The translations under genes and the position numbers were made by a program. From Candidatus Binatia bacterium (lineage in GTDB: Bacteria > Desulfobacterota > Binatia > UBA12015), in the NCBI GenBank assembly GCA_029248525.1, contig JAQWJE010000052.1, forward strand, positions 1 to 64,000: a DNA stretch of 64,000 nt. The letters are read 5' to 3'. Positions 19,342 to 36,530 of this stretch are shown here, piece after piece. Under the pieces are notes generated by a model. The model had not been told where the DNA came from. It made no database searches and saw only the letters and a list, made by a program, of their open reading frames with translations. The stretch's first letter is position 1, and each line of letters starts with the position of its first letter.

Positions 19342-20281
19342 GAAGGCGAACCCGACGAGGATCGGAGGATTTGTCCTTGCGTCGCTCATGCTGGCAGTTC
19401 TCGGCGTGGCTCTTTTCGGCTCGGGACGCTTCTTTGAGCGGACCGAGCCTTTTGTCTGTTATTTCGATGGGTCCATCAACGGGCTGGCGGTCGGTTCGAA
19501 TGTGAAATTCAAAGGGGTGCCGATTGGCTCGGTCTCCGAGATTCTCCTGCGCTTCGATGAGTCCGACGATAGTGCCAGCGTGCGGATTCCAGTGGTGATC
19601 CGCATTGACGAGAGCAAGATCGAAAAAGGTGCCGACCGCCCGGTAGACCTGAGCGACCCTAAGGTCCTGCAGTCGCTGATCAGCCGGGGCCTCCGGGCAA
19701 GCCTTCAATCCGAAAGCCTCGTGACAGGCCTGCTCTACGTGAACCTCGATTTCTACCCGGACGCACCACCGATTCGATTGGCGGAGGCCGGCGATATGAT
19801 GGTGATCCCGACACTTCCCTCGACGCTCGAAGCGGTGCAGGAAGTGATGGGTCGGGTGGTTCGCGAATTGGATCAGGTGGACTTCAAGGAAGTCTTTCTC
19901 TCGGTCGAGGAAACGATCGAGTCGATTCATGAAATGCTGACCTCCCCCGAGATCCCGTCGACGATGGAGTCCCTCGCCGACACCATGGAGAGTCTGCGGA
20001 AATTATCGCATACGCTGAACGAAAAGATCGGCCCCTTCTCGGAAGCGGTGGAAGGCACAGCCCTGCAGGCCGATACGACCTTGCAGGAACTGACCGATGT
20101 GATCGCTTCGGTGGGCGTATTGCTCGACCCGGAGTCGCCCTTGGCGTTTCAGGTGGGCCAGACACTGCGCCAGGTTTCGGGCGCCTCGGACTCGGTGCGT
20201 GAGTTGGCAAACTTCCTCGAGGAGCATCCGAGCGCTTTGCTCTATGGTCGTGGCGGTGAGCCGGAAGAGGAGAATCCGTGA
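19334..20281 (+). CDS. mlaD: MCE-domain protein (MlaD/PqiB-like)
   Basis: About 315 residues. One N-terminal membrane anchor (about 10-32) is followed by the MCE domain (FVCYFDGSINGLAVGSNVKFKGVPIGSVSEI, ending near GLLYVNLDFYP). The C-terminal third is helical and likely coiled-coil (ELDQVDFKEVFLSVEETIESIHEML). Such proteins form periplasmic hexameric rings or tubes through which lipids pass. The longer helical tail than E. coli MlaD resembles Ttg2C/PqiB-type proteins that can span further into the periplasm. The start overlaps mlaF (ATGAGTAA), and the stop overlaps the next start (TGATG). Confidence 0.92.
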   Translation: MSKKANPTRIGGFVLASLMLAVLGVALFGSGRFFERTEPFVCYFDGSINGLAVGSNVKFKGVPIGSVSEILLRFDESDDSASVRIPVVIRIDESKIEKGADRPVDLSDPKVLQSLISRGLRASLQSESLVTGLLYVNLDFYPDAPPIRLAEAGDMMVIPTLPSTLEAVQEVMGRVVRELDQVDFKEVFLSVEETIESIHEMLTSPEIPSTMESLADTMESLRKLSHTLNEKIGPFSEAVEGTALQADTTLQELTDVIASVGVLLDPESPLAFQVGQTLRQVSGASDSVRELANFLEEHPSALLYGRGGEPEEENP

Positions 20282-20880
20282 TGGTGAATCGACATTTTCG
20301 CAAGACAAGCTTGTTGTTCATGCTGCTCGTCTCGAGTTGCTCGCTTTTGTCCGGTGCCCCGGGTTCGGGTCCGAATCGATATTACGTTCTGACTGAGGGT
20401 GCGGAATTGCGTGAGATCGCGCGCCTGCCGAAATTGAGCCTCGGCGTGGGTCCGATCGAGCTGCCGGATTATCTCGATCGGTTTTCCATCGCGACTCGCA
20501 GCGAGGCAAACAGGGTCACCTACGCGGAGAATGACCGATGGGCCGAAAGCCTCGGAGGTAATGTCCAGCGCGTTCTCGCGGCCGATCTATCCGTTCTGCT
20601 CTACACGGAACGGATCTCGTTGTTTCCCTGGTACCGGACCTCGGCGCCGGATCGGCGGGTCTCGATCAGCATTCAGCGTTTCGAGGTCGACCCCGGAGGG
20701 AAGGTTCGCTTGTGGGCTCGTTGGATCCTGCGGGATGAAGACGGGAAACGACTGGTATCAGGGGAGTTTGATGAACGACGAGAAGTCGCCACCGGACCCG
20801 ATGCCGTGGCTCGGGTGATGAGCGATCTGGTTGGAGACCTCGCGCGCTCCCTGGCGGTCGTAGTCGCAGAATCCGTTTGA
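20281..20880 (+). CDS. PqiC/YmbA-like ABC transport auxiliary lipoprotein
   Basis: About 199 residues. A lipoprotein signal ends in LLVSSC, a plausible lipobox. The mature part matches the ABC-type transport auxiliary family (PqiC): YYVLTEGAEL near the start, LSLGVGPIELPDYLDRFSIATR, then RWAESLGGNVQRVLAADL. PqiC-type lipoproteins sit on the outer membrane and receive the MCE tunnel. The ATG shares a base with the mlaD stop codon (TGATG). The operon therefore mixes Mla-type permease and ATPase with a Pqi-type outer-membrane partner and lacks MlaA and MlaC. Confidence 0.85.
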   Translation: MVNRHFRKTSLLFMLLVSSCSLLSGAPGSGPNRYYVLTEGAELREIARLPKLSLGVGPIELPDYLDRFSIATRSEANRVTYAENDRWAESLGGNVQRVLAADLSVLLYTERISLFPWYRTSAPDRRVSISIQRFEVDPGGKVRLWARWILRDEDGKRLVSGEFDERREVATGPDAVARVMSDLVGDLARSLAVVVAESV

Positions 20881-20911
20881 GGGTCGGGGCCGCGAATGAG
20901 CTCAAGCGGTG

Positions 20912-21955
20912 CTAGCGCGTCGTCACCGAGACGGTCATATCTGCGTCGGGAACCGGGACATAGGCGCGCAGGATCGCATAAAACGGTTTGCCGGTCGGGA
21001 TCCCGTTTTTACCGGACCCGTCGGGGCTGAGCGTTACGGTGTAGGTGCCGTCCGCATTGGGCTCGGCAGAATAGGTCGTCTGGTCGTATACTTTTTTATC
21101 GTTCGGAATCAGAAAACGATCCTCTGCTCCGTACGCTGTCACCGAGAAATATCCGGAATCCTGGACGATGCCTGCGGGCACCCTGAGTTCGTAGGTTTTC
21201 GTGCCGGACAGAGGCTCCCCTCCCTCGTCGACCATGATGGGGAGGTAGCGGACGGTGTCGGAGGGGGTTCCGAGTTGGCCGAGCATCACGGCGCTGGCTG
21301 AGGTGATCTCACCAACGTCACCGGACTTCTTGCCGAAAGCTCTGCCTGCATCGAGGTGGGGAATGCTCGCCTCGATCAAGGCGAGCCCGGACTTTTCAAT
21401 CGCTGATGAAAATCGCTGCACATCGCGATGCATGTCGCCGTCTCCACCGTCGAGACGCATCTTCTGGCCGAGCGCTGTCACCTCGTCCAAATTGTTGACC
21501 ACGACCATCCGGGTCAGAACCAGTCCCTGATCGGTTTCGAGGATGACGTGATCAAAGTCGCCCGCGGGGGCTTTCTGTCCGGGCCGCATCAAGACGATGG
21601 GTTTGCTCGGGTTGACGATGACGGCGGGTACGTTGTGCAGCATGTCGAAAACCGAGACGGAAAAGAACCGGTCGTATTGCGGTGTATGCAGCACGGCCGG
21701 GCCGTTGGAGAGGCTGAACCAGGCGTAGCCGTAATCGACGGTTGCTTGCGGTGTGACAACCGTCTTGTCGGTCGGGTCTACCAATCCGGTAAAGCTGAGT
21801 TGCCCGGCCTGATTGTCCACCAGCCATTCGTTCATCATGCGAGCCTGCTCCTGATTCGGGTACGCGCGAATATAGGCTTCGATCGTATCCAGAGCGCGAG
21901 CGGAGATCGGGAAAAAGAGCAAGCAGGCAAGTGTGATTATGGTTTTTCTTTGCAC
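20912..21955 (-). CDS. exported DUF1254/DUF1214 family protein
   Basis: 347 residues with a cleavable signal peptide (about 1-21, ending SARA). The N-terminal DUF1254-like part has TVDYGYAWFSLSNGPAVLHTPQYDRFFSVSVFDM; the C-terminal DUF1214-like part has TKTYELRVPAGIVQDSGYFSVTAYGAEDRFLIPNDKKVYD. The family is widespread, of beta-sandwich type, and without established chemistry. The gene is convergent with the Mla operon (31-base gap) and downstream of the ClC gene on the same strand. Confidence 0.85.
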   Translation of the reverse strand: MQRKTIITLACLLFFPISARALDTIEAYIRAYPNQEQARMMNEWLVDNQAGQLSFTGLVDPTDKTVVTPQATVDYGYAWFSLSNGPAVLHTPQYDRFFSVSVFDMLHNVPAVIVNPSKPIVLMRPGQKAPAGDFDHVILETDQGLVLTRMVVVNNLDEVTALGQKMRLDGGDGDMHRDVQRFSSAIEKSGLALIEASIPHLDAGRAFGKKSGDVGEITSASAVMLGQLGTPSDTVRYLPIMVDEGGEPLSGTKTYELRVPAGIVQDSGYFSVTAYGAEDRFLIPNDKKVYDQTTYSAEPNADGTYTVTLSPDGSGKNGIPTGKPFYAILRAYVPVPDADMTVSVTTR

Positions 21956-22006
21956 GAGGAACTCCTCCTGAAATTGGTTGGTCGCCGCGCCCAGTGGGTT
22001 GGACCG

Positions 22007-23326
22007 TCAGGCAGGAGGGGCGTCCTTGCTTTCGGGTGGGCGTAGTCGAGTCATGAAGTTTTCGGCCAGACCTTCGTAGAGAGCCGTCGGACAGACAAGG
22101 CGCGATGCCTCGAACGCCATCATGGCGGCAAGCGCCAGAGGCAGGGTCATGAAGCGGGCATCGGTCATTTCGACGAGAATCACAAAAGCAGTGATCGGGC
22201 TTTGGACGACTCCGGAGAAATAGCTCACCATGCAAAGGAGAATCACCGCTTTGGGGTCCATGAACTCCAGAAAGGGTGCCACGAGTTGGCCGAGCGCGGC
22301 GCCGGTCGCAAGACTGGGATCAAAGAGTCCTCCGGGGATTCCGCTCAGCAGCGCAATCCAGTTCCCCAGAGCAATCGCCCCGAATCCCCAAGTCGGTACT
22401 TCGGTCCCTTCCATCAGGATGGCTTCCGCATGAGGGTATCCGCTGCCGTAGCTGAACCCTTCCGAGAGGATCGCCAGGAGAGCCATGGCCGCGCCGAGAG
22501 AAGCGGCCGCCATGAGAGGTTGTCGGCGATAGAAGCGACCGTAGGGACGCGTGGTCAGCAGCAGGCTCTGGGCAAAAAGCCCTCCGAGCAAACCGAAGAC
22601 CACGCCCAGGACCGGGACCACCAACCATTCGAGGGGCTGGTCGAGGCGGGTCTCTATTTTGCCGTAGAACAAATAGTCGCCGAAGCGTGTCATGCAGACG
22701 ATGCATGCGACCAATACGGTGCGCACGATCGTGCCTGCGTTTTCCTTTTCGAACGAACGGCCAATTTCTTCCAATGCGAAAACAGCACCCGCGATGGGTG
22801 TGTTGAAAGCAGCCGCGATCCCGGCAGCGCCTCCTGCGAGGATCAGGCCTCGTTGCACCAACCATGTCTGGAATTTCCCCCAGCGGTTGGAGAGGTACAT
22901 AAAGCAGGCGCCCGCGTGGACCGAGGGTCCTTCCCGGCCGATGGTCATGCCGGCGAAGAGGCCGATCGCGAGAAGCAGACCTTTACCGACAAGAATGCGC
23001 CAGGAAAGAACATGGCTGCGGGCCGGCCCGTCCTCGATCTTCAAGGCGGCGATAGCCTGAGGAATGCCGGTTCCATCGGTGCCCTGAAAGAAACGGTCGC
23101 GCAGTTGGCAAATGAGAATCATGCCGAAGAAGAGCATCGCCGGCTGAATCCAGGGCGAGACCGTCTGCAACCATTGCGAAAATAGAACGCTCCAGTCGTC
23201 GAGGTATCGAAACAAGGCCGCGACGGCACCGGTTGCTGATGCGGCCAGAATCCACACGGAATGTCGCCGCAGTGCATGCAGAGAGAACAGGCTTTCCTGC
23301 CATCGGGATTTCGTGGACATTTCCAT
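22007..23326 (-). CDS. clcA: ClC-family chloride/proton antiporter
   Basis: 439 residues, about 10 or more membrane helices. ClC signatures: GTGIP (85-89) for the first selectivity loop (usually GSGIP; Thr replaces Ser), GREGPSVHAG (130-139) with gating Glu132, and GGLFDPSLATGAALG for the GxFxP loop. ALEEIGRSFE supplies the internal proton Glu seen in antiporters rather than channels. In the cell it would exchange chloride for protons, for example in acid stress. Its ATG shares a base with the pgi stop (TGATG at 23328-23324), so the two genes are translationally coupled, an unusual pairing. Confidence 0.9.
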   Translation of the reverse strand: MEMSTKSRWQESLFSLHALRRHSVWILAASATGAVAALFRYLDDWSVLFSQWLQTVSPWIQPAMLFFGMILICQLRDRFFQGTDGTGIPQAIAALKIEDGPARSHVLSWRILVGKGLLLAIGLFAGMTIGREGPSVHAGACFMYLSNRWGKFQTWLVQRGLILAGGAAGIAAAFNTPIAGAVFALEEIGRSFEKENAGTIVRTVLVACIVCMTRFGDYLFYGKIETRLDQPLEWLVVPVLGVVFGLLGGLFAQSLLLTTRPYGRFYRRQPLMAAASLGAAMALLAILSEGFSYGSGYPHAEAILMEGTEVPTWGFGAIALGNWIALLSGIPGGLFDPSLATGAALGQLVAPFLEFMDPKAVILLCMVSYFSGVVQSPITAFVILVEMTDARFMTLPLALAAMMAFEASRLVCPTALYEGLAENFMTRLRPPESKDAPPA

Positions 23327-24966
23327 CAGGCACGTCGCCATTGCCGGAATCGGCGAATCAGGTTGTTGGTCGAAGTATCGTGCGAGAGGGTCGTCTCTTC
23401 GTCCGACTTCAACTCGGGGACGATCTTGTTGGCGAGAACCTTGCCCAATTCGACGCCCCATTGATCAAACGAGTTGATGTTCCAGATCGTCCCCTGGGTG
23501 AATATCTTGTGTTCATAGAGGGCGATCAGCTGACCCAGAATATGCGGCGTCAGTTCGCGTTTTACGATAATCGTGGTGGTCGGGTGATTTCCCCGGAAGG
23601 TACGATGCGGCACCTCATTTTCGGGTACGCCTTCGGCGCGAACTTCATCTTCCGTTTTTCCGAATGCGAGAGCTTCGGTCTGTGCAAGACAATTGGCCAT
23701 CAGAAGTTCATGGTGGTCGCGAATATCGTGCGATGGTTTGGCAAAGCCGATGAAGTCGCAGGGAATCAGCTTGGTTCCCTGATGAATCAATTGATAGTAG
23801 GCATGCTGGCCATTCGTTCCGGGCTGGCCCCAGACGACGGGCCCGGTTTGGTAGTCGTGGATCGGTCGCCCTTCGCGGTCCGTCGACTTTCCGTCACTCT
23901 CCATATCCAGTTGCTGCAGGTAGGCGGTCAGTCGCCAGAGATATTGGTTGTAGGGGAGGATGGATTGCGTCTGTGCGCCAAAGAAGTTGTTGTACCAGAT
24001 GCCGACGAGGCCCATCAGGACGGGAAGATTCTTTTCGGGGGGCGTTGTCCGGAAATGCTCATCCATGGCGTGGAAGCCGGCGAGCATCTCCCGGAAACCG
24101 TCCGGGCCGATCGCGACCATGAGGCTGAGTCCGATGGCGGAATCAAACGAATAACGCCCGCCCACCCAGTCCCAGAAGGCGAACATATTGGCGGTATCAA
24201 TGCCGAAGGCCGCCACCTCTTTTGCGTTCGTGGAAACCGCGACAAAATGACGGGCCACGGCAGCTTCGTCGCCGAGAGCGTCCAGCATCCAACGGCGTGC
24301 GCTGTGTGCGTTGGCGAGCGTTTCCAGTGTGGTGAAGGTCTTGGAGCAGACGATGAAAAGAGTTTCCGCCGGGTCTTTGCCCTCGACCGCCTCGGCGAAC
24401 GCGGTGGCATCGACGTTGGAGACAAAGTCGAAGCTGATCGAACGGTCACTGAAGGATTTCAGAGCCTCGTAGGCCATCGCCGGCCCGAGGTCGGACCCTC
24501 CGATGCCGATATTGACCACATGGCGAATTTTCTTGCCGGTATGGCCGGTCCAGCTCCCGCTGCGAATTTTTTCCGCGAAGCCGGCCATTTGGTCCAGTAC
24601 CGCATGGACCTCCGGCACGACGTTCTTGCCCTCGACTTCGATGACGGCGTCTCGGGGCGCTCGCAGTGCCACGTGCAGTACGGCGCGATTCTCCGTGATA
24701 TTGATTTTCTCTCCGGAAAACATCGCCTCGATGCGTTTGCTCAGGTTCATGCGCCCGGCCAGCGCCTGCAATAAACCGAGAGTTTCCGTGGTAAGTCTGT
24801 TTTTTGAAAAATCGACGAAGAGGTCGAGGGCCTCGAGGCTGAGTGCTTCGCTACGGCCCGGATCGTCGGCAAACATCTCTCGGAGGTGAGCATCGGCCAG
24901 CTCTTGCTGGTGATTTTGGAGAGCTTTCCACTCGTCTGTTTCGGTGGGGCGCGGGGATTGAGACAT
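23326..24966 (-). CDS. pgi: glucose-6-phosphate isomerase
   Basis: 546 residues, the usual length of the bacterial enzyme (E. coli 549). It interconverts glucose-6-phosphate and fructose-6-phosphate. Motifs: [31 protein letters not shown], signature 1 in [13 protein letters not shown], the [19 protein letters not shown] loop with catalytic His, and signature 2 around [10 protein letters not shown]. The ATG at 24966 follows AGGAAAGGA; the frame continues upstream to 25371 over the divergent DUF2868 gene and is not used. It is the first gene of a pgi-clcA operon. Confidence 0.96.
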
Positions 24967-25087
24967 TTTCCGAATTCCTTTCCTGGAGAAGGGACAGCGT
25001 GACCTCGGCGGGACAATATCTTCTGCGAGTGGATAGACAAGGGGTGTGCTCTGGCGGTTGCCCCGGGATTCCGATTGATTAAGAAGC

Positions 25088-26557
25088 ATGCGCGAGCGAG
25101 ACGCACAGAAAATTGCCCTGATTCGGGCAGTTGAGGAAGCAGACCCCGAGGGGCTTCTACTGCGCGTGCGCGCGCGTCGGGCCGCCACCGAGGAGGCTCT
25201 CGCCGCAGGTGGCCCGCCTGCAGCACTGGCTGCGCATCGCGCCCGAGCCTTGCTTGCGCTGTTGATGGAGCGAGTATCGGGGATTTCCGGCGTTCTGCGC
25301 CTGACCCGGGTTTCGCAGGCGAGCTTTCTGCCGGTTGGCGTTTTGGCTCTTCTCTCCGGCTTGATGACCAATGTGGCGGGGCCGGAGCGTTATATCAGCC
25401 TTCTCGCCTTTCCTCTGCTGGGCCTGATTCTCTGGAATTTCTTCGCGTATCTCGTGCTGATTTTTTCGGTGTTTCGGGGCGAGGGCGCGCCAGAATCGGT
25501 CGCGGAGCCGAGATTCGGGCCCGGTCGAGCCTCGGCGTTCTACGCCTGGGCGGGGGAATGGGCGTGTGCACGACTCAACGCTCCCGACCCTGATGAGACA
25601 GCGATTGTGGCCCGCGCACTCCCTGCCTATCTGCGTTCCTGGACCGCGGAATTTGCTCCCATCGCGGGATTGCGGATTCGCGCTCTCCTCCACGCCGGTG
25701 CGGGGTTGGCCGTTGGTGGTGCTGTGCTGGGGATGTACCTGCGCGGCCTGGCACTGGAGTATCAGGCGACGTGGGAGAGCACCTTCCTCGACCCGGAAAC
25801 CGTCCAGCTTTTGCTCCAGGTAACGCTCGGGCCGGCGGCCTGGATGCTGGGCATCGCGTTGCCGGACGTCGCCGCTCTCGAGCAGATGCGTCAGCCGGGA
25901 GGGGCCGTGATGGCCGCTCCCTGGATTCATCTCTGGGCGCTGACCGCGGGACTCACGGTTTTGCTGCCGCGGACGGTTCTGCTGCTGGGCTGTCTTTTGG
26001 TGGCCCACCGACGCGGGCAGGATTTGCCTGTGGATCCCCTGTCCGGATCTTTTCGGGTGCTCCGGGGTTCGCGTGAGGGCAGCGGGTTCTTCGCGGAGAT
26101 CCTTCCCTACAGCTACACCTTGCCCCAAAAAGAGAGGGATACGGCCTTGGAACTGGCCCTCGAGGTTGCCGGCCACGGTGTTTCCGCCCGGCTGGGGGAA
26201 CCTCTTGTCTACGGCGCCGGGACTTCCTTGAGGACCGATGGCCCGGTCCCGGACCTGGTCATTGTTGTTTTCTCCCTGGCGCAATCTCCCGAACGGGAGG
26301 TCCACGGGGAGTTTTTGACCCATTTGCTCTCGCTTTCGGAGGGGAGGGCGGTGCTTGCGGTGGTGGATCGATCGCCGTGGCGTGCGCGCTTCGATAGGAC
26401 CGAGGACGCTCGTGCGCTAGAAAGAGAGAGGACTTGGGACCGAGTGATCCGTGAAATTGGCCTGACCGCGGTTCATCTGGATCTGGGTACTGAATTACGA
26501 CCGGAAGACGTGGCGGCTGCCGAGCAAGCCTCTGTCACGGATGATCGAGGGGCATGA
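25088..26557 (+). CDS. DUF2868 membrane protein
   Basis: 489 residues. A polar N-terminus (1-75) precedes two membrane segments near 78-125 ([19 protein letters not shown] and [26 protein letters not shown]), a further pair near 195-220, and more around 300-320 ([17 protein letters not shown]). The C-terminal 150 residues are soluble. The pattern matches DUF2868 proteins, which are known to be encoded next to DUF3482 GTPases in proteobacteria; no function has been assigned. First gene of a three-gene operon with two GTPases; it likely provides the membrane platform. Divergent from pgi across 121 bases. Confidence 0.75.
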
Positions 26558-26564
26558 GCAAGCG

Positions 26565-28004
26565 ATGAGTACCGTAACCCTGAGCCTGATCTCACACACC
26601 AACGTGGGGAAAACGACGTTGGCGCGGACGATTCTGCGCCGTGATATCGGAGAGGTCCTCGATCAGGCCCACGTGACCGAGGAGTCGGAAGGCTTTGATC
26701 TGGTAGCGCATGGCGACGATGCCTTGCGCCTCTGGGATACCCCCGGCCTGGGCGACTCCGCGCGTTTGATGGACCGGTTAAAGCACCAAGGCAATCCCCT
26801 TGGTTGGTTCCTGCATCAAATCTGGGACCGCTATCGTGACCGCCCGCTCTATTCGAGCCAGCAGGCTGTGCGAAACATTCGAGCTGAGGCAGACGTGATC
26901 CTCTATCTGGTGAACGCGTCGGAGGATCCCGGTGACGCGGGCTATGTTGCTTACGAGATGGAGCTTCTTGGTTGGATGGAAAAACCGGTCATGGTTCTTC
27001 TCAACCAGACAGGTGTCGGCAAGGAAGAGGAGCGTGTCGAGGTCTGGCGTCAGGCGCTGGCCAAATGGCCCATCGTGCAGGACTTCCTCCCGCTGGATGC
27101 GTTCACGCGATGCTGGGTCCAGGAAGGGATTCTCCTCGAGCGGGTCTCGAAACTGCTCTCCGATGCGCGCCAGCCTGTGATGCATGGATTGCAGAACGTC
27201 TGGCAGGAAAGAAATCTTGGTGTTTTCGAGAGTTCGTCGAAAGCTGTGAGCGACTATTTGCTGCGTGCCAGCGGCGACCTCGAGGTTCTGGATGGGCAGT
27301 CCCCCGGCAAGACCGAGGAGCGGCGTGCCACGCGCGTGCTTTCCCAGAGGTTGGATGAGGCGACGACTCTGCTGATGGATCAGCTGATCGAAGAGCATGG
27401 CCTCGAAGGTCGTTTTCAGACGGTGGCTCGGGACCGATTGCGCGAGGATTTCGATCTGCCCGGGGCCGCCGCTCTCTCGGCTTCAAGGACCACGATCTTG
27501 GGGGCAGCGATGGGCGGTGCGGCCGGTGGTTTGGTTGCTGACGTCGCTGTGGGTGGATTGACTTTCGGGGGTGGCGCCGTGGCCGGCGCTCTTCTGGGTG
27601 CCGCCGGCGCCGCGGGCCTGCGCAAAGGGTACCAATTCGTTCGGGGTGAGGATGTGCAGCAGGTTCGCTGGAGTGACGAGTTCCTGAAAAATCTCTACCG
27701 CCAGTCAATCCTCCGCTATCTGGCGGTCGCTCATTTCGGTCGGGGACGCGGCGCCTGGCGGGAAACCGGGAACCCGGAGCGTTGGAGCGGCCTGGTCGAG
27801 GGGGCCCTCGAGGGGCGTCAGGAAACCCTGTCTTCGGCGGTCGATCAGGCTCGGGATGGCGAAGATTCGTCTGTTTTCCCGGACCTTACGAAATCCACTC
27901 TTCTCGATATCCTCTCGGAAGGTTATCCTGAGGCGGCTCATTTCCTCGGTCGGGATTTGCAGCCGACGACGGATTCCACAGAGCCTCGGGAAAACCCTGA
28001 ATGA
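26565..28004 (+). CDS. DUF3482-family GTPase
   Basis: About 479 residues. The G domain is N-terminal: P-loop SHTNVGKTT (10-18, with Ser in place of the first Gly), G3 DTPG (58-61) and a degenerate G4 (LNQTG instead of NKxD). The C-terminal half has a long Gly/Ala-rich hydrophobic stretch (AAMGGAAGGLVADVAVGG, then GALLGAAGAAGL), a likely membrane-inserting hairpin. This matches the DUF3482 group linked to DUF2868. The ATG at 26565 lies 7 bases after the upstream stop; an in-frame ATG at 26541 would overlap the first gene. Its stop overlaps the next start (ATGA). Confidence 0.75.
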   Translation: MSTVTLSLISHTNVGKTTLARTILRRDIGEVLDQAHVTEESEGFDLVAHGDDALRLWDTPGLGDSARLMDRLKHQGNPLGWFLHQIWDRYRDRPLYSSQQAVRNIRAEADVILYLVNASEDPGDAGYVAYEMELLGWMEKPVMVLLNQTGVGKEEERVEVWRQALAKWPIVQDFLPLDAFTRCWVQEGILLERVSKLLSDARQPVMHGLQNVWQERNLGVFESSSKAVSDYLLRASGDLEVLDGQSPGKTEERRATRVLSQRLDEATTLLMDQLIEEHGLEGRFQTVARDRLREDFDLPGAAALSASRTTILGAAMGGAAGGLVADVAVGGLTFGGGAVAGALLGAAGAAGLRKGYQFVRGEDVQQVRWSDEFLKNLYRQSILRYLAVAHFGRGRGAWRETGNPERWSGLVEGALEGRQETLSSAVDQARDGEDSSVFPDLTKSTLLDILSEGYPEAAHFLGRDLQPTTDSTEPRENPE

Positions 28005-30013
28005 CACCACTTGGAGAATTTTGTGCGGCCATCGAGCAACGCCTCCGACCTTTGTCGAAGCCGTTGGACAGCATGGTAGAGTCGATCCGGAGATTGCCGG
28101 AAGAGACTTCGGGGCGTGATACAGGTATCGCGGCCCTCACGGATATTCGCAGCCGTCTCGACTTGATTCTGGACAAGGCGGCAGCCCAACAGGCGTTCAT
28201 GATCGTTTTCGGCCCGCTGAAAAGCGGCAAATCAACCTTGATGAATGCTCTGGCGGGGGCTTACGTGAGCGAGGTCTCGAGTTTGCCCGCGTACCCCTGC
28301 ATGGTTTTTGTCGGCGATGCCGGGGAGCGCCGCCTCGAGGTGACCCATTACGACGGGACCTCGCTTGCTTTTGATGATCTCGCGCCGATGAAAAGTCTTC
28401 TGGACGAAGCGCATCGCGAGTTGGCGAAAACCCTGCGCGATGCGGAGGAGGTCGGGCGCGATATCCAGCCGGAAGCCGACCTTCCCCGCGCGATCCGCCG
28501 CATCGATGTGCGGATGCCGGCGGGGCCGCTGGCCGAGTCGGGGGCGATGCTCGTCGATACGCCCGGCCTCTACAGCCGAATGAAGTTCGGGTATGACGCG
28601 ATGGCTCGCGAATTCAGAGACAAGGCCGCGAGCGCTATTTTTGTTGTCAAAACCGAGAACCTCTTTCTGGAGCAGATTTTCGATGAGTTCTCGGATTTGC
28701 TTCGCCTCTTCAGCCGGATTTTTCTGGTGGTAAATCTGGATACCTCCAAACGAGATTTGGGACCGGCAGGCGAGTTGGCGCCCAGTCTCGAACAGATGGC
28801 CCCGGACAGGATTGTCGAAGCCTTCGAGAGCCTGGCGATGAATGCAGAGCTGCGACGAGCATGGGAAGAAAAACGCTTGCAGATCTATCCGGTCGATCTG
28901 CAGCAAGCGGCGAGTCGTCGACTGAATCCCGCCCGCGCGGCCGTCCCGTCCCTGATGCCCGATGGTTTCGAGGTTTTCGAGAAAGATTTGCAGGACTATC
29001 TGGCTGGACATGAGTTCCTGCAGGCCTTCATGCGCGATACGACCCGACAGGCAACAAGTCTGATGGAGGACCTTGCCGATATCCTGCGCACCGGAGCGAT
29101 CGCGGAGATGCGGAAGGCCGCGATTCTGCTGGAGGAAGACCGCAGTGCTGCCGAAGTCCGCGAGAAGATCGCGGATGAATTGGTCGGTCACGATTGGGAG
29201 AAAGCCTTCGCGGACGTTCGTGAGGAAGTCAGGCGCCTCGTGGGTGAGCAGACCGGGTCGATTGGCCCGCGTGCCGTCAGCAAGGCTGAAGGCGCGGTGT
29301 CGCGTTGGTTTGAAAGCGATCAAAGTCTGGCGGATCTGATGCGCCTCGAGATATCCCAGGTCGTCGCGGATTCTCGCAAGCAGACCGTTTCGATTGCGGC
29401 GGAGGTGAGCCGCACGGTGGTGGGTAGCGATGTATCTGGAGCGTTGCTGCGGGCGGATTGTCGTCAGGAGACCGACGCCCTGAATCTTCCGGTGGCTGCG
29501 GTCGCGCGCGAGGCCCTGAGCCAGGTGGTCGAACCCGCCGTCGCGATTGATCTGACGCCCTGGATTCCTCTGGGGATTCTTCCCGTGAAACGCTCGGTCT
29601 GGGATTGGTTATTCTTGCGGCGGAACGCGTCTGTCCGCCGAAGCCTCTTCGGTCCCGAGGATCTGCCGTCTCGTCCGATTCCTGCGGCCACCAAGCAGCG
29701 CCGTCTCTCGGAGGCTCGCCCGGTCCTGATGCAGGCAATGCGCCAGCGAATTCTCTGTATCGCGGAAGAATCGTTGGGCAGAGCGACCAACGAAGTCTTT
29801 GGTCGACATGTGGCGGCGGTATGTCGCGCGCTCCGGGACCATTTGCAGGAGCGCGGCCGGAAGGAAAAGAAAGCCGCTGCCGCGGCAGCCGTGCAGTTGT
29901 CCGGATTGCTGGAAGTTCTGGTCGAGGCGGATGCCCTTGCGGCCCTCTCGCAGGAAATCTCGCCGCTTCTCGCTGAGGTCGGCGTTGCCTACGAAACTTC
30001 GGTCGTCGACTAG
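28001..30013 (+). CDS. dynamin-like large GTPase
   Basis: 670 residues. P-loop GPLKSGKSTLMNAL (71-84), G3 DTPG (186-189) and a G4-like NLDTSKRD (245-252). Long helical segments follow (about 330-500 and 560-670), with a hydrophobic patch near 520-545 (AIDLTPWIPLGILPVKRSVWDWLFL) that could be the membrane paddle. Bacterial dynamin-like proteins (BDLP, DynA, LeoA) remodel or fuse membranes, and some act in phage or antibiotic tolerance. The typical switch I Thr is not obvious. The gene starts within the stop of the DUF3482 gene (ATGA). Its own stop shares the palindrome CTAG with the convergent gene. Confidence 0.75.
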   Translation: MTPLGEFCAAIEQRLRPLSKPLDSMVESIRRLPEETSGRDTGIAALTDIRSRLDLILDKAAAQQAFMIVFGPLKSGKSTLMNALAGAYVSEVSSLPAYPCMVFVGDAGERRLEVTHYDGTSLAFDDLAPMKSLLDEAHRELAKTLRDAEEVGRDIQPEADLPRAIRRIDVRMPAGPLAESGAMLVDTPGLYSRMKFGYDAMAREFRDKAASAIFVVKTENLFLEQIFDEFSDLLRLFSRIFLVVNLDTSKRDLGPAGELAPSLEQMAPDRIVEAFESLAMNAELRRAWEEKRLQIYPVDLQQAASRRLNPARAAVPSLMPDGFEVFEKDLQDYLAGHEFLQAFMRDTTRQATSLMEDLADILRTGAIAEMRKAAILLEEDRSAAEVREKIADELVGHDWEKAFADVREEVRRLVGEQTGSIGPRAVSKAEGAVSRWFESDQSLADLMRLEISQVVADSRKQTVSIAAEVSRTVVGSDVSGALLRADCRQETDALNLPVAAVAREALSQVVEPAVAIDLTPWIPLGILPVKRSVWDWLFLRRNASVRRSLFGPEDLPSRPIPAATKQRRLSEARPVLMQAMRQRILCIAEESLGRATNEVFGRHVAAVCRALRDHLQERGRKEKKAAAAAAVQLSGLLEVLVEADALAALSQEISPLLAEVGVAYETSVVD

Positions 30014-32073
30014 TCGGCCTTCTCTCGTGGGCCGCTCAATCCGGCTCCCGCTTGCAGGGTCACCTGGGTCGTTCCCAGTGGCTGATCCATGCTGTCCTCG
30101 AAGTTCACGCTCACCAGGTAGTTTCCGGCGGGTAGATGCGGGATGTCGAGTTCGATGCCGCGTCCCATCTCGCTTCGGGGCCCCATCGCTAGCGGGAGGA
30201 AGGCCGTGCTCGTGCCCTTGGCCAGAACCTTGCCGCGCATAGTTCTCCAGGTGATGGCGACCTGGCGGGGCTCGATCGGCTCGGGGTGTCGGAAGACGGA
30301 ATCCGACTCATTGGTCATATAGATGGGAACCCATTGCTTTTGGCGCGTGATCGGGTGCGCGTAGGTGGTGGTGCGTGTGGCCTGCAGGTGATTCAAGTCC
30401 TCTGAAATATCGACGGATCCCTTGAGCTTGTAGAGATGAACGTCTTCGGTTTTCTCGATCAACTCGAGCCGATCCGGATCGGCTACCAGCGGGCGCAGGC
30501 GACGATTTTCGTTTATGCCGCCTCGGTTCTGATGAATCGCAAGGGTACGGAACCCGAGAGCGTAGAGTGCATCCGAGGCATTTTTTGCAGGGAGGTTTTT
30601 GGCCAATTCCTGAATGCCGTCCTGGACGTAGGTCGAAAAAGAATTATAGCAAGCGGCCGTGGGCTGCCCGTGAAAGCCCGCAGCGGAAAGGTAGATCGGC
30701 CCGTCAGCAACTTTTCTCCAGGGCCCGAAGTAGGCGGGGAGATCGAGCACCGAGCCTTCGGGAATTTTCCGGTAGCTCTCTTGCATCTCTGTGGTGAGCC
30801 CTGCTGCGCGGGAGTCGATCTGTGCCGAGCGGCCCAGAGACAAGGCCGAGATCCGCGGGTGCGTCACTTCGATCAAGGCCAGAGCCAGAATGGCCGTGGC
30901 CATAAAGGGACGTATTTTTCGCGGCAACCATTCGAGAAGCACCAGAATTCCATAGGCCGCGAGAAAATCAGCGACGAGAAAAACGCCTACCGCGATGCTG
31001 CGAAGCACCCGGATGCCGTCCATGCCGGGAAGGATCTCCCGCAAGGCGAAAATGGGGCTCGGAATCCCGAGCCCCGGTACCGTCGGGATGCAACAGAGAA
31101 AGATAGCGAAGCCTCCCGCCAGAAGCGGGAGGCGGGGGTCCACGCCATTGCGCCGCCGTGGTTTACGGATGCGGTCGGCCAGACCCACGAGCAATAGCAG
31201 CAGGGTAAGCCAGCCGATGCTCGCGTCGCCGCCGGGGAGAAAGTCGGTCGGTTGGAGCAGGACTGTAGAGGCACGCCCTTGCAAGATGCCCCAGGTTTCG
31301 CGGGCGTGCAGGTAGGGAGCAAAAAGCCACCAGGCAAATACTCCGGTGGTGCCACTGAATACGGCAATCTGAGGAATGCGATTTTTCAGGCGGTCCCGGT
31401 ACTGCCAGAGGAGATCTGCGCCATAGACCCCGCCGAGGAGGAACAAACCAAAGGCCTGATAAAAACTCTCCAGAAGTTGCAGAATCAGAAGCGCGGTGAG
31501 GGCGAAGGTGTCTCGCCAGCGGCCACCATAGATGACCCGATGCGCAGCGAGCAGCGCCAATGGCGTCCATATATTTCCAGTGGTGAACAGATGTGCCGGG
31601 TTTGTGGTGCGCAGCGGGTGCAGGGCGAAGAGAATGGCGGCAAAGAGGGCCGCCGGAACGCTGCGCGTCCAAAAAAAAGCGAGCGTGTACATCGAGAGCC
31701 CGGCGATCCACAGGTGCAGAATTGTGACGATATTGAAGGTGGTGACCGGATTGCGCGAGAGAGCATGCGGGATCACGCCCAGCGCTGCTTCCCCGAACAT
31801 ATGCTCACCGAGGGTGTAGGGGGCGGTCAGCGGGAAGCAACTGCTTTTGGCGGCAAAATGGAGAGGATCCGCCAACATCCGAGACGCCTTCAGCCCGATC
31901 ATGCCCGAGACCGCTACCTGATCGGCGTGGTAGACCAATTTCGCCTGGCGAGTTTCATGCCGGGCCGGTTCCGGCAGGCGGTTGCTGATATCGGGTAGAA
32001 TGGACCGATAGACGAAGAGGGTGGCCAGAAGGAGCAGCAGTCCTGCGGCTACGTGTCTCAGTCTTTGGTCCAT
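30010..32073 (-). CDS. polytopic membrane protein, YfhO/GT-C-like
   Basis: 687 residues. About ten membrane helices fill the first two thirds, and the last 230 residues are a soluble, probably periplasmic, beta-rich domain (for example GSVLDLPAYFGPW, FRTLAIHQNRGG). The pattern resembles GT-C glycosyltransferases and YfhO-like proteins that modify surface glycans, but no clear DxD or ExD motif in the first loop could be singled out. FHGQPTAACYNSFS after the last helix is typical of this class of long membrane proteins. Convergent with the dynamin gene, overlapping by 4 bases. The donor is probably a lipid-linked sugar (inference). Confidence 0.6.
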   Translation of the reverse strand: MDQRLRHVAAGLLLLLATLFVYRSILPDISNRLPEPARHETRQAKLVYHADQVAVSGMIGLKASRMLADPLHFAAKSSCFPLTAPYTLGEHMFGEAALGVIPHALSRNPVTTFNIVTILHLWIAGLSMYTLAFFWTRSVPAALFAAILFALHPLRTTNPAHLFTTGNIWTPLALLAAHRVIYGGRWRDTFALTALLILQLLESFYQAFGLFLLGGVYGADLLWQYRDRLKNRIPQIAVFSGTTGVFAWWLFAPYLHARETWGILQGRASTVLLQPTDFLPGGDASIGWLTLLLLLVGLADRIRKPRRRNGVDPRLPLLAGGFAIFLCCIPTVPGLGIPSPIFALREILPGMDGIRVLRSIAVGVFLVADFLAAYGILVLLEWLPRKIRPFMATAILALALIEVTHPRISALSLGRSAQIDSRAAGLTTEMQESYRKIPEGSVLDLPAYFGPWRKVADGPIYLSAAGFHGQPTAACYNSFSTYVQDGIQELAKNLPAKNASDALYALGFRTLAIHQNRGGINENRRLRPLVADPDRLELIEKTEDVHLYKLKGSVDISEDLNHLQATRTTTYAHPITRQKQWVPIYMTNESDSVFRHPEPIEPRQVAITWRTMRGKVLAKGTSTAFLPLAMGPRSEMGRGIELDIPHLPAGNYLVSVNFEDSMDQPLGTTQVTLQAGAGLSGPREKAD

Positions 32074-32155
32074 GATCTCTTTTCGGCCTCTTTCCTCGCT
32101 GGCTGAATGCCGGCGAAGCTAGCATATTTATGAGATCGAAGTGCGGATATGAAGC

Positions 32156-33226
32156 CTATTTTTTGAAGTTCGTCGAGGGCGTGAAGGGTAGATCCAGCGT
32201 GCTGACCAGCCCGGGCGCTTGGCGGCAGACTTCCGGGATCGCGTTGACCATCCGCAGAGCTCCCGCCTGAACACCGCCTTTGACGTGGTCGCCCTCACCG
32301 CTCGACATATGAGATTCGAGGACCACCGTGGGGTTGCCGGTGACCGTGCAGCGGTGAATGCCCTGGCGCCCCTCGGGCGGCATGGGCCAGTGTGGCGCAA
32401 TATCATCGCGCAGCCGATTGACGTGCTCGGTCACGATGACCGGACGACCGTAGGCCATGCCTTCGACCCGGAAGTGTACCGCGGCGCATGCGTCCTTGGG
32501 AACATGCATCATCGGGGTATCGAAGGCTTCGGGGGTATAAGCCCGCTCGAAGGTCTCCTCGATATCGTCCAACTTGATCCCGACTCGGTCGGCGATCAGC
32601 TGCACCATCTGGCCCCAGCCCGTTTTCAGGATGCCGGGAATGCCGAGAGGCGCGTCGAAGGAGGCGGGTTCTCCGAACCCGAAGGCGAACCCGGCAAGCC
32701 CGGGGTCTTCGTAAGTAGCGTAGTTGAAGATTTCCTGGACCAGAACCTGCTCGATCTGATCACTGACCTGAAGAGCCGCCAGCGGAAGCACATCGCCCGA
32801 GAATCCGGGGTCGATGCCATTTACAAAGAGCGTCGATTGGCCCTCCTGGCAGGCGGCGGCGAGCGGGTCGCGAATCGCGGGGTCGGCCGATGGGGGGTGA
32901 ATCAACCAGACCAGTGCCGTCGAAAGGACATTGATGCCGCGTCGGAGAACGGCTGACATCTCGGCAACGGTTTCCATCGGTCGCGGTTCGCCGTTGGCCA
33001 TGTAGAGGACACAATCCGGTTTGAGGTCGAGGAGGGCGTCGATATCGTTGCTGCCGATCACGCCGGTTTTGGTGGGAAGGCCGGCAATTTCACCAGCGTC
33101 CTTGCCGACTTTTTCCGGGCTGAAGGTATGCAGACCGACCAACTCGAAGTCGGGGTGCCGAATCACATGCCGAAGGCTTTCATTACCGATGTTTCCGCTG
33201 CCCCACTGAACCACTCGATATGTCAT
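32156..33226 (-). CDS. NAD(P)-binding dehydrogenase, 2,4-diaminopentanoate dehydrogenase/DHDPR-like
   Basis: 356 residues. The N-terminal Rossmann motif is VVQWGSGNIGNESLRHV (GxGxxG at 9-14), followed by FELVGLHTFSPEKVGKDAGEIAGL as in dihydrodipicolinate-reductase-like proteins. The second domain has LFVNGIDPGFSGDVLPLAAL. The whole resembles proteins annotated as 2,4-diaminopentanoate dehydrogenase or dihydrodipicolinate reductase N-terminal family in mycobacteria and deltaproteobacteria; their true substrates are mostly unknown. No dap gene is nearby, so a lysine-pathway role is not supported. Divergent from cyaY. Confidence 0.75.
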   Translation of the reverse strand: MTYRVVQWGSGNIGNESLRHVIRHPDFELVGLHTFSPEKVGKDAGEIAGLPTKTGVIGSNDIDALLDLKPDCVLYMANGEPRPMETVAEMSAVLRRGINVLSTALVWLIHPPSADPAIRDPLAAACQEGQSTLFVNGIDPGFSGDVLPLAALQVSDQIEQVLVQEIFNYATYEDPGLAGFAFGFGEPASFDAPLGIPGILKTGWGQMVQLIADRVGIKLDDIEETFERAYTPEAFDTPMMHVPKDACAAVHFRVEGMAYGRPVIVTEHVNRLRDDIAPHWPMPPEGRQGIHRCTVTGNPTVVLESHMSSGEGDHVKGGVQAGALRMVNAIPEVCRQAPGLVSTLDLPFTPSTNFKK

Positions 33227-33403
33227 CTTCTCTTGTCTCCTGCGATGGCGGATTCGGGTGCCGATGACCCCCCGATTTACTTGCTCTCGAACCTGTCAGA
33301 GGTCCCGTGCCTCCTGAATAGGGGAAAGCCGCGACGATGAAAAGGCAATGCGTGCTGCGGTGTCGACTTGCTTCGGCGCAGGCTTTCCGGTTCTTCCGTA
33401 TCC

Positions 33404-33724
33404 ATGACAAATCAGGAATATCTCCATCTGGCGGATGCCTGTCTCGATCGAGTGGCCAACTGGTTGGAAGGTTTGGACCCCGAAGAGGTCGATTATTCGA
33501 CCACGGACGGGATGGTTTCCCTCGATTTTCCGGACGGGAAGAAATTTGTTCTGAATCGCCAGTCGGGGAACTCCCAGATGTGGTTGGCCGCGGGCGTTCG
33601 CGCCTGGCACTATAATTGGTCTCCCGAAAGCCAAGCTTGGTTGGACGACAAGGATCAGCACGAACTTTATGCTCGCATCGCTGAAGTTGTCGGGGAAAAA
33701 ATCGGCCGGACAGTCACTCTCTAG
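33404..33724 (+). CDS. cyaY: CyaY/frataxin iron-binding protein
   Basis: 106 residues, the normal bacterial length. The frataxin core is evident: an acidic first helix (EYLHLADACLDRVANWLEGLDPEEVDYSTTDG) followed by MVSLDFPDGKKFVLNRQSGNSQMWLA, the sheet signature. Frataxin binds iron and modulates the IscS/IscU Fe-S assembly machine. The ATG at 33404 gives the family N-terminus (MTNQEYLHL); a frame opening at 33368 adds 12 residues without match. No isc genes are in the window. selO starts 18 bases after the stop, probably in one transcript. Confidence 0.93.
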   Translation: MTNQEYLHLADACLDRVANWLEGLDPEEVDYSTTDGMVSLDFPDGKKFVLNRQSGNSQMWLAAGVRAWHYNWSPESQAWLDDKDQHELYARIAEVVGEKIGRTVTL

Positions 33725-33741
33725 GGTTCCGGGAGCCGCCT

Positions 33742-35181
33742 ATGCCATTTTCTGACAGCTATGCTCCAGCCCCGGCGTGGCAGAGCCTCGGCGAAGGCTT
33801 TTCCGATGAAGTCGCCCCCGCCGAATTCCCTGAACATCGCCTTCGCTTTCGGCATCAGGAATGGGCATCGGCCATTGGCTTGGGTGACCTCACGCCCGAT
33901 GAGTGGACGAATCATTTTGCCAAGTTCCAACCGCTGCCCGAGAATCTCCTCAAACCAGCTGCCGTGCGCTATCATGGTCATCAGTTTCGCTCCTACAATC
34001 CCGACTTGGGCGATGGGCGCGGCTTTATCTTTGCCCAATTGCGCGACGGCGAGGGTCGACTTCTCGATCTCGCAACCAAAGGGAGTGGACAGACCCCGTG
34101 GTCGAGGCAGGGGGATGGACGCCTGACACTCAAGGGAGGCGTCCGGGAGGTGCTGGCGACCGAGATGCTCGAGGCTCTGGGCGTCTATACATCCAAGAGC
34201 ATTTCTCTTTTTGAAACAGGCGAGTCCTTGTGGCGCGGTGATGAGCCCTCGCCGACACGTTCGGCGGTTCTGGTTCGTCTCGGACATTCGCATGTGCGAT
34301 TTGGGTGTTTTCAGCGATTGGCCGCTTTACAGGAAAAAGAAAAACTCGCCCAATTGCTGGACTATGCCATTGCGCATTACGCCCCCGAGACCGCGGCATC
34401 ACCGGATGCGCCGTCAGCTTTCTTGCGCGTCGTTGTGGAGCGCAGCGCGCGACTTTGCGCGTCCTGGATGGCCGCGGGATTTGTTCATGGGGTTTTGAAC
34501 ACGGACAATATGAACGTGACAGGCGAAAGCTTCGATTATGGTCCGTGGCGCTTTGTACCCACCTATGAAATGGGATTCACCGCGGCATATTTCGATCATC
34601 AGGGTCTCTACGCCTACGGGCGCCAGCCGGATGCGGTTTTCTGGAATCTGCAGAGGTTGGCCGAAACCCTGATCGATCTATCTGCAGAGGAGCCCATACG
34701 TAAAGCACTGGATTCTTTTGCCGAGACTTTTTTCCGCGCCTATCGCGAAGCGATGCTGCGCCGCCTGGGACTCCGGGCTTGCGGAGACGATCGGGATGCG
34801 GACATCCTCTCTTTGCTGCGGGCCTTCCTGGAGAAGAGTGGCGTCGGCTACGAGAATTTTCTCTTCGATTGGTGGGGTGGAGAGGCGAGCGCAGGCCGGG
34901 CTGCGGCGGGTCCATCGGCCGAGTTTTATGAACACTCGACTTTTGCCCCCCTGCGGCAATCATTGGGGACCTTCGAGCCTCTAGATGCGGGACGGCTGAG
35001 CGATGACTATTTTGCGGCAACCCGTCCTTGCACGATGCTGGTCGAGGAAGTCGAGTCGTTGTGGGATCCGATCGCCGAAAACGACGATTGGACCGGCTTC
35101 GACACGAAAGTAGCCGAGATCCGAAGGATGGGTGCCATCCTGCAGCTCGGGAATCCTTCGGAGGGAGTGGCGACCGAATGA
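33742..35181 (+). CDS. selO: SelO/YdiU-family protein AMPylase
   Basis: 479 residues, close to E. coli YdiU (478). A pseudokinase that transfers AMP from inverted ATP to protein hydroxyls, acting in redox homeostasis. Key parts: RYHGHQF...LGDGRG loop (76-94), KGSGQTPWSRQGDGRLTLKGGVREVL (113-138, with Lys113), and the metal motif NTDNMNVTGESFDYGPW (253-269, Asn256 and Asp265). The loop reads FRSYNPDLGDGR where most homologues have FGxWAGQLGDGR, a divergence worth noting. There is no C-terminal selenocysteine motif. Its stop overlaps the next start (ATGA). Confidence 0.92.
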   Translation: MPFSDSYAPAPAWQSLGEGFSDEVAPAEFPEHRLRFRHQEWASAIGLGDLTPDEWTNHFAKFQPLPENLLKPAAVRYHGHQFRSYNPDLGDGRGFIFAQLRDGEGRLLDLATKGSGQTPWSRQGDGRLTLKGGVREVLATEMLEALGVYTSKSISLFETGESLWRGDEPSPTRSAVLVRLGHSHVRFGCFQRLAALQEKEKLAQLLDYAIAHYAPETAASPDAPSAFLRVVVERSARLCASWMAAGFVHGVLNTDNMNVTGESFDYGPWRFVPTYEMGFTAAYFDHQGLYAYGRQPDAVFWNLQRLAETLIDLSAEEPIRKALDSFAETFFRAYREAMLRRLGLRACGDDRDADILSLLRAFLEKSGVGYENFLFDWWGGEASAGRAAAGPSAEFYEHSTFAPLRQSLGTFEPLDAGRLSDDYFAATRPCTMLVEEVESLWDPIAENDDWTGFDTKVAEIRRMGAILQLGNPSEGVATE

Positions 35182-36529
35182 CTGGTCGCCGCCTCGGAGC
35201 TGGCTCCCGAACGATATATGCTCTCGGCGATACCAGCACCAACACCGCGCTGACGGCGCTGACGATGATCTACGCGACGTTTTTTCTGACCCAGGTGGCC
35301 GGGCTCAGGCCGGTTCTGGCCGGCGCGGTCCCGCTTGTAGGGCGATTTGTCGACGCGATCAGCGACCCTCTGATCGGACGCCTTTCTGACCGAACCAATT
35401 TCGGCGGCGCGCGCCGCCGTCCCTATTTCCTGATCGGAGCGATTCCGTTCGGCCTCAGTTTCGCGATGCTCTGGATCGTTCCTGATGTCGAAAGTCAGCT
35501 CACTTTATTTCTTATTATTCGTTCATGTATTCCTTGGTCAGCATCACCTCGACCGTCTGCTCGGTCCCTTATCTTGCTTTGATTCCCGAGATGGCAACGG
35601 ATTACGACGATCGTACGTCCCTCAATACCTATCGTTCTGTAGGCGCGACCGTGGGCATTTTTTGCGCCATAGGCATGCGGGGGTTTGCCGACTCGCTTGG
35701 CGGAGGACCTGAGGGCTGGGGGCTGGCTGCGGCGATCTACGGGGGCGGTTTGGCACTCCCCTGGTTTTGGGTCTACCGCGTCAGCTTCGAGCGACCGGAG
35801 TTCCGACGCGAGGAGGTTCAATCGCCGCCTTTGATCACCAGTCTGCTGTCGGCCTTGCGCAACCGGACGTTCGCTCGGCTGGTGTCCCTCTATGTCTGTG
35901 GTCGTCTGGCCATGGATCTCGTCGGGGCGATGCTGATCCTCTACTTTACATATTGGCTGGGTCGTACCGAGGATTTTGAGGTCGCAATGCTGGTATTCCT
36001 GCTGGCGGCGGTGTTCGGGCTTCCCTTCTGGTTCTGGGTCAGCAAGCGAGTCGATAAAAAGCGCACCTTCATGATGGGGGCGCTACTTTGGACGACGACG
36101 CAATTATCATTGTTCCTCGTGTCGCCGGATTGGCCCCGTTGGGTAGGCTTTGCCGGCATTCTTTTCGCCGGCTTTGGTTTTGCGGCGGTCGATATCATGC
36201 CCTGGTCGATGGTCGGAGATGTCATCGACGAAGATGACCTGGAAACTGGCGAGCGGCGCGAGGGGCTCTATAATGGACTCCTGATGTTCCTTCGTAAATT
36301 GGCAGGTGCGGTGGCTGTGTTTCTGGCACTCGCGCTGCTGGATTTCGCCGGCTTTCAAGATGGCCAGGAACAATCCCCCTCGGTACTTCTGATGATTCGA
36401 CTATTGGCCAGTCTCGGTCCGGCGCTTTTCCTTTTTCTCGGCTTTCTCGCTGCGATCCGGTACCCGCTCACACGAGAGCGGCATGCGGAAGTTCTGGCCG
36501 CGCTCGAGTCGCGTGTCGGAAGGCAGTGA
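35178..36529 (+). pseudogene. MFS transporter of the GPH sodium/sugar symporter type, frameshifted
   Basis: The N-terminal half starts at 35178 inside the selO stop (ATGA). It reads IYALGDTSTNTALTALTMIYATFFLTQVAG, then PLVGRFVDAISDPLIGRLSDRTN, with RRRPYFLIGAIPFG, the classic GPH (MelB/XynB) N-terminus. That frame fails after LTLFLII near 35519. The remaining helices continue in the -1 frame from about 35522 to 36529 (SVPYLALIPEMATDYDDRTSLNTYR and on). Adding one T after ATTATT at 35514-35519 would restore a single protein of about 450 residues with 12 helices. It is either an assembly deletion, a true null allele, or recoding. The ctaA gene follows 1 base after its stop. Confidence 0.85.
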
Positions 36530-36530
36530 G

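Follow-up and report, generated by a model that had tools for sequence, protein, structure and literature searches.

A DUF2868 gene (A), a gene for a small GTPase with a DUF3482 domain (B) and a dynamin gene (C) form a recurrent operon in the uncultured bacterial family of the DNA studied here, a 64,000-nucleotide stretch of a Candidatus Binatia contig (the window). Because C is kept as the third gene in most family members having both B and C, the three genes are probably made from one transcript. We put at roughly 55 % the reading that C, a stand-alone dynamin, became and has mostly stayed the third gene of the A-B pair in the window's family, where co-expression would let the A-B and C modules act at one membrane. 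The arrangement does not extend to a general DUF2868/DUF3482/dynamin system.

Organisation of the locus

The three genes are co-directional (Table 1), with +7 bases between A and B and -4 between B and C, the stop codon of B and the ATG of C sharing 4 bases. These frames and spacings are as described in the first-pass annotation of the sequence, and its gene identities were likewise confirmed, the matches to the DUF2868 (30.9 bits, cut-off 26.8), DUF3482 (53.4 bits, cut-off 29.2) and Dynamin_N (40.1 bits, cut-off 27) profiles all lying above the curated Pfam cut-offs; the third gene is, by the Dynamin_N profile and its predicted fold, a real 670-residue dynamin. The ATG at 26565 is the likeliest start of B, an alternative in-frame ATG at 26541 giving a 17-base overlap with A; the later start is preferred because relatives align from it. 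That the genes are strictly co-translated, as had been proposed, is overstated, since five relatives have 36-91 bases between the stop of B and the start of C (taking the start codon nearest the aligned start of C).

A scan of 24800-30300 returned no sigma-70-like promoter (0.8 expected) and nine terminator-like sites (5.8 expected), none of them between B and C; one + strand match lies within B at 27858-27871, about 130 bases ahead of its stop. The scan is weak evidence either way. Genes for phosphoglucose isomerase (PGI) and a CLC channel lie beside A on the opposite strand, a convergent gene at 30010-32073 (YfhO match under the cut-off) overlaps C by its last 4 bases, and frataxin and SelO genes are found past C. 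The annotated neighbours are mostly housekeeping or metabolic, and the base composition of 18000-38000 is unremarkable, with no island.

Table 1 Features of the A-B-C locus (window coordinates)
Feature	Coordinates	Strand	Description
Gene A	25088-26557	+	DUF2868 protein, 489 aa, probably polytopic; PF11067 E 2.7e-7, above cut-off
Gene B	26565-28004	+	Small GTPase domain + DUF3482, 479 aa, type II form; MMR_HSR1 (PF01926) E 3.1e-10, above cut-off; PF11981 E 3.4e-14
B P-loop SHTNVGKT	26592-26615	+	Type I rows mostly GHPNEGKS
B LNQTG	27000-27014	+	Stands at the NKxD place
B glycine-rich hydrophobic stretch	27495-27620	+	Possible membrane hairpin, putative membrane role; hydropathy maximum 1.68; AF2 confidence <50
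Gene C	28001-30013	+	Dynamin-like, 670 aa, mitofusin/BDLP-type predicted fold (AF2, Foldseek, VIA); PF00350 E 5e-10
C P-loop GPLKSGKS	28211-28234	+	Invariant in 51 rows
C switch I VSEVSSLPAYPCMV	28265-28306	+	Includes Tyr98; YPC in 80/80 loci, the locus scan itself having used FGPLKSGK and LPAYPCMV as patterns
C G3 motif DTPG	28556-28567	+	Invariant in 51 rows
C G4-like NLD	28733-28741	+	Asn and Asp without variation over 51 rows; two further dynamins of the class likewise read NLD
C hydrophobic/aromatic tip between long helices	29525-29656	+	Conserved; candidate membrane-binding paddle

The A and B proteins

Hydrophobic stretches at residues ~75-98, 110-128, 197-223, 241-259 and 274-305 (hydropathy >1.4 in 19-residue windows) make A a probable polytopic membrane protein. 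A profile search of the PDB gave no match for A, which was tracked mainly as a neighbour of B.

B retains the P-loop, a threonine-bearing AHVT motif and DTPG, with LNQTG where NKxD is usual. DUF3482 proteins split by motif into two forms. The window's B is type II (SHTNVGKTT, AHVT, DTPGLGDS, LLNQTG), whereas type I proteins of the phylum sample mostly carry GHPNEGKSS, PGET, DTPGFQ and INxK; both forms share the glycine-rich stretch and, at the C-terminus, an AH-GRR-like motif. Type I genes of the phylum sample also stand in the order A then B as in the window, in genomes that are without C. The best PDB matches of the GTPase domain of B, weak ones, were Era and Der, which unlike B have neither DUF3482 nor LNQTG at the NKxD place. 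The predicted model of B is weak (pLDDT 66 from 4 alignment rows), with structure matches that are mostly GTPase domains and include IniA and a dynamin pair, and we dropped a fold assignment for DUF3482 on these grounds. The possible hairpin falls in a low-confidence part of this model. The available portions of the literature naming DUF2868 or DUF3482 give no function for either, the mentions being one indel marker, one protein with differential expression and a listing of domains whose function is unknown; PMC12440251 also names DUF2868 or DUF3482.

The predicted fold of C is closest to mitofusin/BDLP-type dynamins

The fold predicted for C comes nearest to those of mitofusin-1, BDLP and IniA. 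The AF2 model, built from 51 rows (pLDDT 87.8, pTM 0.73), has long helices joined to a GTPase head, and a Foldseek search with it placed BDLP first (1.3e-14) with IniA and mitofusins next. The possibility raised beforehand, that the best matches of the third gene would be unrelated GTPases of the EngA or Era type, therefore does not apply. VIA-align gave Z 21.4 against mitofusin-1 (rmsd 8.9 over 362 aligned residues) and Z 16.3 against BDLP. The top matches in both searches, BDLP (2j68/2j69) and mitofusin-1/2, share with C the GTPase head on a helical bundle at ~13-17 % identity in structural alignments. Foldseek TM-scores by query length were low, 0.20-0.31 among the 50 matches listed, and the domains of C are therefore probably arranged differently from those of the matched structures. 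By sequence alone the only PDB match was BDLP (E 0.18); the sole PDB profile match, TM_1646 (2p61, E 0.0029), covers a helical stretch and was judged uninformative. In Pfam the window's C matched, apart from other P-loop models, only the general Dynamin_N, and neither NCBIfam nor PADLOC gave a specific match for it. The portions available of the literature on bacterial or planctomycete dynamins contain no description of its family.

A threonine in switch I (G2) is a feature of the dynamin superfamily. C appears to differ from the compared dynamins in having a tyrosine at this position: Tyr98, invariant in 51 rows, stands gaplessly opposite Thr (three) or Ser (one) in four other dynamins, the four aligned among six loci of the class with dynamin-like matches, although Ser/Thr at residues 93-94 and a local pLDDT of ~69 around switch I make a shifted register possible. 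The P-loop, DTPG and switch I are strictly kept across records titled Planctomycetota, Opitutales/Verrucomicrobia, Pseudomonadales and others. C also differs from BDLP and the mitofusins in having no clear transmembrane segment, its hydropathy reaching at most 1.51 (residues 625-643), with a second peak of 1.44 (509-527). Hydropathy, AF2 layout and conservation together place the conserved tip at about residues 509-552.

Linkage of the dynamin to the A-B pair within the family

The search covered 13 genomes of the window's family (G000-G012). DUF3482 was found above the cut-off in nine (G000, G002, G004, G005, G007, G008, G009, G011, G012) and C in ten (G000, G002, G005-G012). Eight genomes have both, and in six of these, from three genera, B is directly followed by C (G000, G002, G005, G009, G011, G012), so that the order is more than an accident peculiar to the window. 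Identity of the linked C proteins to that of the window is 46-48 %, and PGI and CLC genes adjoin A in the five linked relatives.

In G007, B and C lie on different contigs, C having SelO downstream of it just as it does in the window; the contig of B stops ~200 bases past B, so a true separation there looks the same as an assembly gap or insertion. B and C are both present but apart in G008, where the 19 kb contig of B has no C match. G004 has B, with C not found, and G006 and G010 have C with no DUF3482 match, C sitting after a transporter gene in G006 and the contig beginning 0.5 kb ahead of C in G010. As several family genomes are fragmented, these absences are soft.

Distribution of B and C outside the family

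A scan of a genome collection with the C alignment yielded 162 relatives, 80 of which were kept, eight in the window's family (L115 being placed there by 99 % identity) and 72 outside it. The scan required FGPLKSGK or LPAYPCMV and so misses members of the C family lacking both. A or B was found near C in 0/72 outside loci (profile search of all frames of at least 60 residues, E <= 1e-3); the upstream flank of C was no shorter than 3 kb in 48 of these loci, and both flanks in 42. The neighbourhood survey for linked dynamins that the first-pass annotation had called for thus found adjacency in six of eight genomes within the family and none at the C loci elsewhere. No conserved partner of C emerged from its neighbours; the recurrent families, drawn mostly from a single group of Planctomycetota loci, resemble local synteny, and many may be wrong-strand frames.

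Genome samples were searched for C at E <= 1e-20, scoring the top two candidates per genome in the phylum, three in Planctomycetota and up to five in Verrucomicrobiota. Among 395 genomes of the phylum sample, DUF3482 was above the cut-off in 35 and C was present in one, the window's own; the other 34 DUF3482 genomes had no C match at that threshold. Linkage that is only sporadic, named earlier as an observation that would refute the first-pass reading, is therefore what is seen outside the window's family. DUF2868 and DUF3482 had been described as known neighbours, and the pairing is borne out: in the phylum sample the gene upstream of DUF3482 was DUF2868 in 10/10 tested, and 13 of 27 pairs overlapped by 4 bases (starts called at the first start codon). 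Downstream of these other pairs a dynamin was found by Pfam in 0/10 next genes and 0/2 second-next genes, and the C profile had no match in further DUF3482 loci (sets of 34 and 33).

C is mostly a Planctomycetota gene, present in 19/294 Planctomycetota genomes, 6/194 Verrucomicrobiota genomes and a handful of records with Gammaproteobacteria or Pseudomonadales in the title. The complete Pla86 chromosome (L137) has C, with no DUF3482 match (G449). Of the 40 genomes with C that were traced from its loci, 15 had DUF3482 above the cut-off.

Co-occurrence and history of B and C

DUF3482 was above the cut-off in 19 of the 294 Planctomycetota genomes, nine of them with C as well. C was present in 7/9 type II genomes, in 2/10 type I genomes (four of these type I calls, G569, G545, G579 and G615, having no motif match and following from Pfam at 5.9e-39 or better plus a P-loop flag) and in 10/275 genomes with no DUF3482 above the cut-off. 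An rpoB tree covering 47 genomes of this sample shows five changes of type II and eight of C; over five independent pairs type II B and C changed in the same direction in 2.6 and in opposite directions in 0.3 (median p 0.5), and with any DUF3482 as the trait the values were 2.8 and 1.5. The seven type II genomes with C come down to ~3 independent events, which is not significant. The raw association of B and C therefore appears largely to reflect shared ancestry, and raw co-occurrence was set aside as proof of a link between them. Among the 194 Verrucomicrobiota genomes DUF3482 was above the cut-off in 11, one of which had C; the type II genomes had C in 0/3. G022, too, has a B of type II but lacks a close C.

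A tree of C built from 41 rows places the window's family, with support 100/99, as sister group of a clade of Planctomycetota (G440, G451, G452, G455, G461). As this grouping spans phyla, it suggests transfer of the gene. Each of the five genomes sampled from that clade carries a type II B, consistent with B and C having a history in common. In a tree of B (32 rows) the window's family falls weakly (71/51) beside a wider Planctomycetota type II set, and G465, G473 and G474 have their C elsewhere in the C tree while their B lies near. With one tree strong, the other weak and these three genomes discordant, we do not claim a co-transfer of B and C; a joint transfer is possible.

A proposed model for action at a common membrane and its alternatives

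If the favoured reading is right, A would be seated in the inner membrane, and B, a P-loop GTPase with a putative glycine-rich hydrophobic hairpin, would dock onto this membrane or into it, switching with its nucleotide state. C would bind the inner membrane from the cytoplasmic side by its tip, self-assemble by way of GTPase heads and helical bundle, and tether or bend the membrane. Co-expression would bring the A-B and C modules to the same membrane, where they may come into direct contact and the GTPases may hydrolyse GTP. A joint A-B-C membrane machine is plausible; as the B-C linkage is confined to one family among the genomes examined and the modules are apart elsewhere, a shared machine is possible rather than probable.

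It may instead be, and we hold this as a tentative alternative to be taken seriously, that C landed behind A-B by an ancestral rearrangement and has been kept there by inheritance only, the jobs of the two modules being unrelated. This would account for a linkage seen in the window's family and at none of the 72 other C loci, for the 34 DUF3482 genomes of the phylum sample without C, for the two family members that keep C without DUF3482, and for a co-occurrence that loses significance once corrected for the tree. It sits less easily with the close gene spacing and with an order kept in three genera despite the divergence of the linked C proteins. The operon in six of the eight family genomes with both B and C and the enrichment of C in type II Planctomycetota would be expected of a true three-part machine, in which C tethers, repairs or surveys the membrane after being recruited or gated by the A-B membrane GTPase pair. 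We regard such a machine as unlikely, since the enrichment shrinks to ~3 events, the Verrucomicrobiota type II genomes and G022 are without C or a close C, and several genomes retain just one module. A more elaborate version, in which A and a hairpin-anchored type II B recruit a mitofusin-like C that is without the usual switch I threonine, B doing the nucleotide switching and C serving as a slow or non-hydrolysing tether in a remodelling machine of new layout, with B and C perhaps having moved together between Planctomycetota and the window's family, seems to us distinctly improbable.

Stress or phage tolerance, the task suggested in the first-pass annotation, gained no support, and a role of A-B-C in phage defence, or as a system akin to LeoABC, seems to us very improbable. 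For B. subtilis DynA, phage resistance has been reported (PMC8844932, as far as its available text goes), and C weakly matches the PADLOC models of LeoA (5.7e-9) and LeoBC (9.9e-7), members like C of the dynamin superfamily; the LeoA structure 4aur comes at Foldseek rank 30. B, which is not a dynamin, matches the same PADLOC models (3e-6 and 1.3e-5), and A has no PADLOC match. LeoABC has neighbouring dynamin partner genes; unlike it, C has no dynamin partner beside it, the genes around it being those for DUF2868, the DUF3482 GTPase, PGI, the YfhO-like protein, frataxin and SelO. By Pfam the neighbours are not defence genes, and the base composition around the locus is ordinary.

The analysis delimits a family of dynamins whose switch I reads YPC and which in Pla86 can be studied apart from B. 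If the operon reflects function, it would hint at a working partner of the uncharacterised DUF2868/DUF3482 pair.

Motif forms of the DUF3482 GTPase

Comparison across phyla resolved the DUF3482 GTPase (B) into two motif forms: type I, carrying mostly GHPNEGKSS, PGET and DTPGFQ, and type II, the form present in the window, carrying SHTNVGKTT, AHVT and LLNQTG. Dynamins of the family of C, the mitofusin/BDLP-like gene following B, were identified at loci L157, L179, L180 and L194 in records labelled Gammaproteobacteria or Pseudomonadales. Two of these C-bearing genomes (G459 and G468) also contain a type II B with the variant motif HTTM, LNQLPP; in neither was this B found in the examined DNA flanking C.

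Neighbouring genes

The YfhO-like gene converges on C, the last 4 bases of which are common to both, and its homologue also adjoins C in G002, another genome of the window's family. The CLC channel and/or PGI gene again adjoins A, the DUF2868 protein gene, in family genomes G002, G004, G005, G007, G009, G011 and G012. Elsewhere in the window, the MlaD-domain and auxiliary lipoprotein genes belong to a likely lipid-transport set.

Genes neighbouring A-B-C and elsewhere in the window
Feature	Position	Strand	Remark
MlaD-domain protein	19334-20877	+	overlapped by ABC-transport auxiliary lipoprotein gene
CLC channel and PGI genes	22007-24972	-	divergent to A
Large YfhO-like protein	30010-32073	-	Pfam YfhO similarity below cut-off
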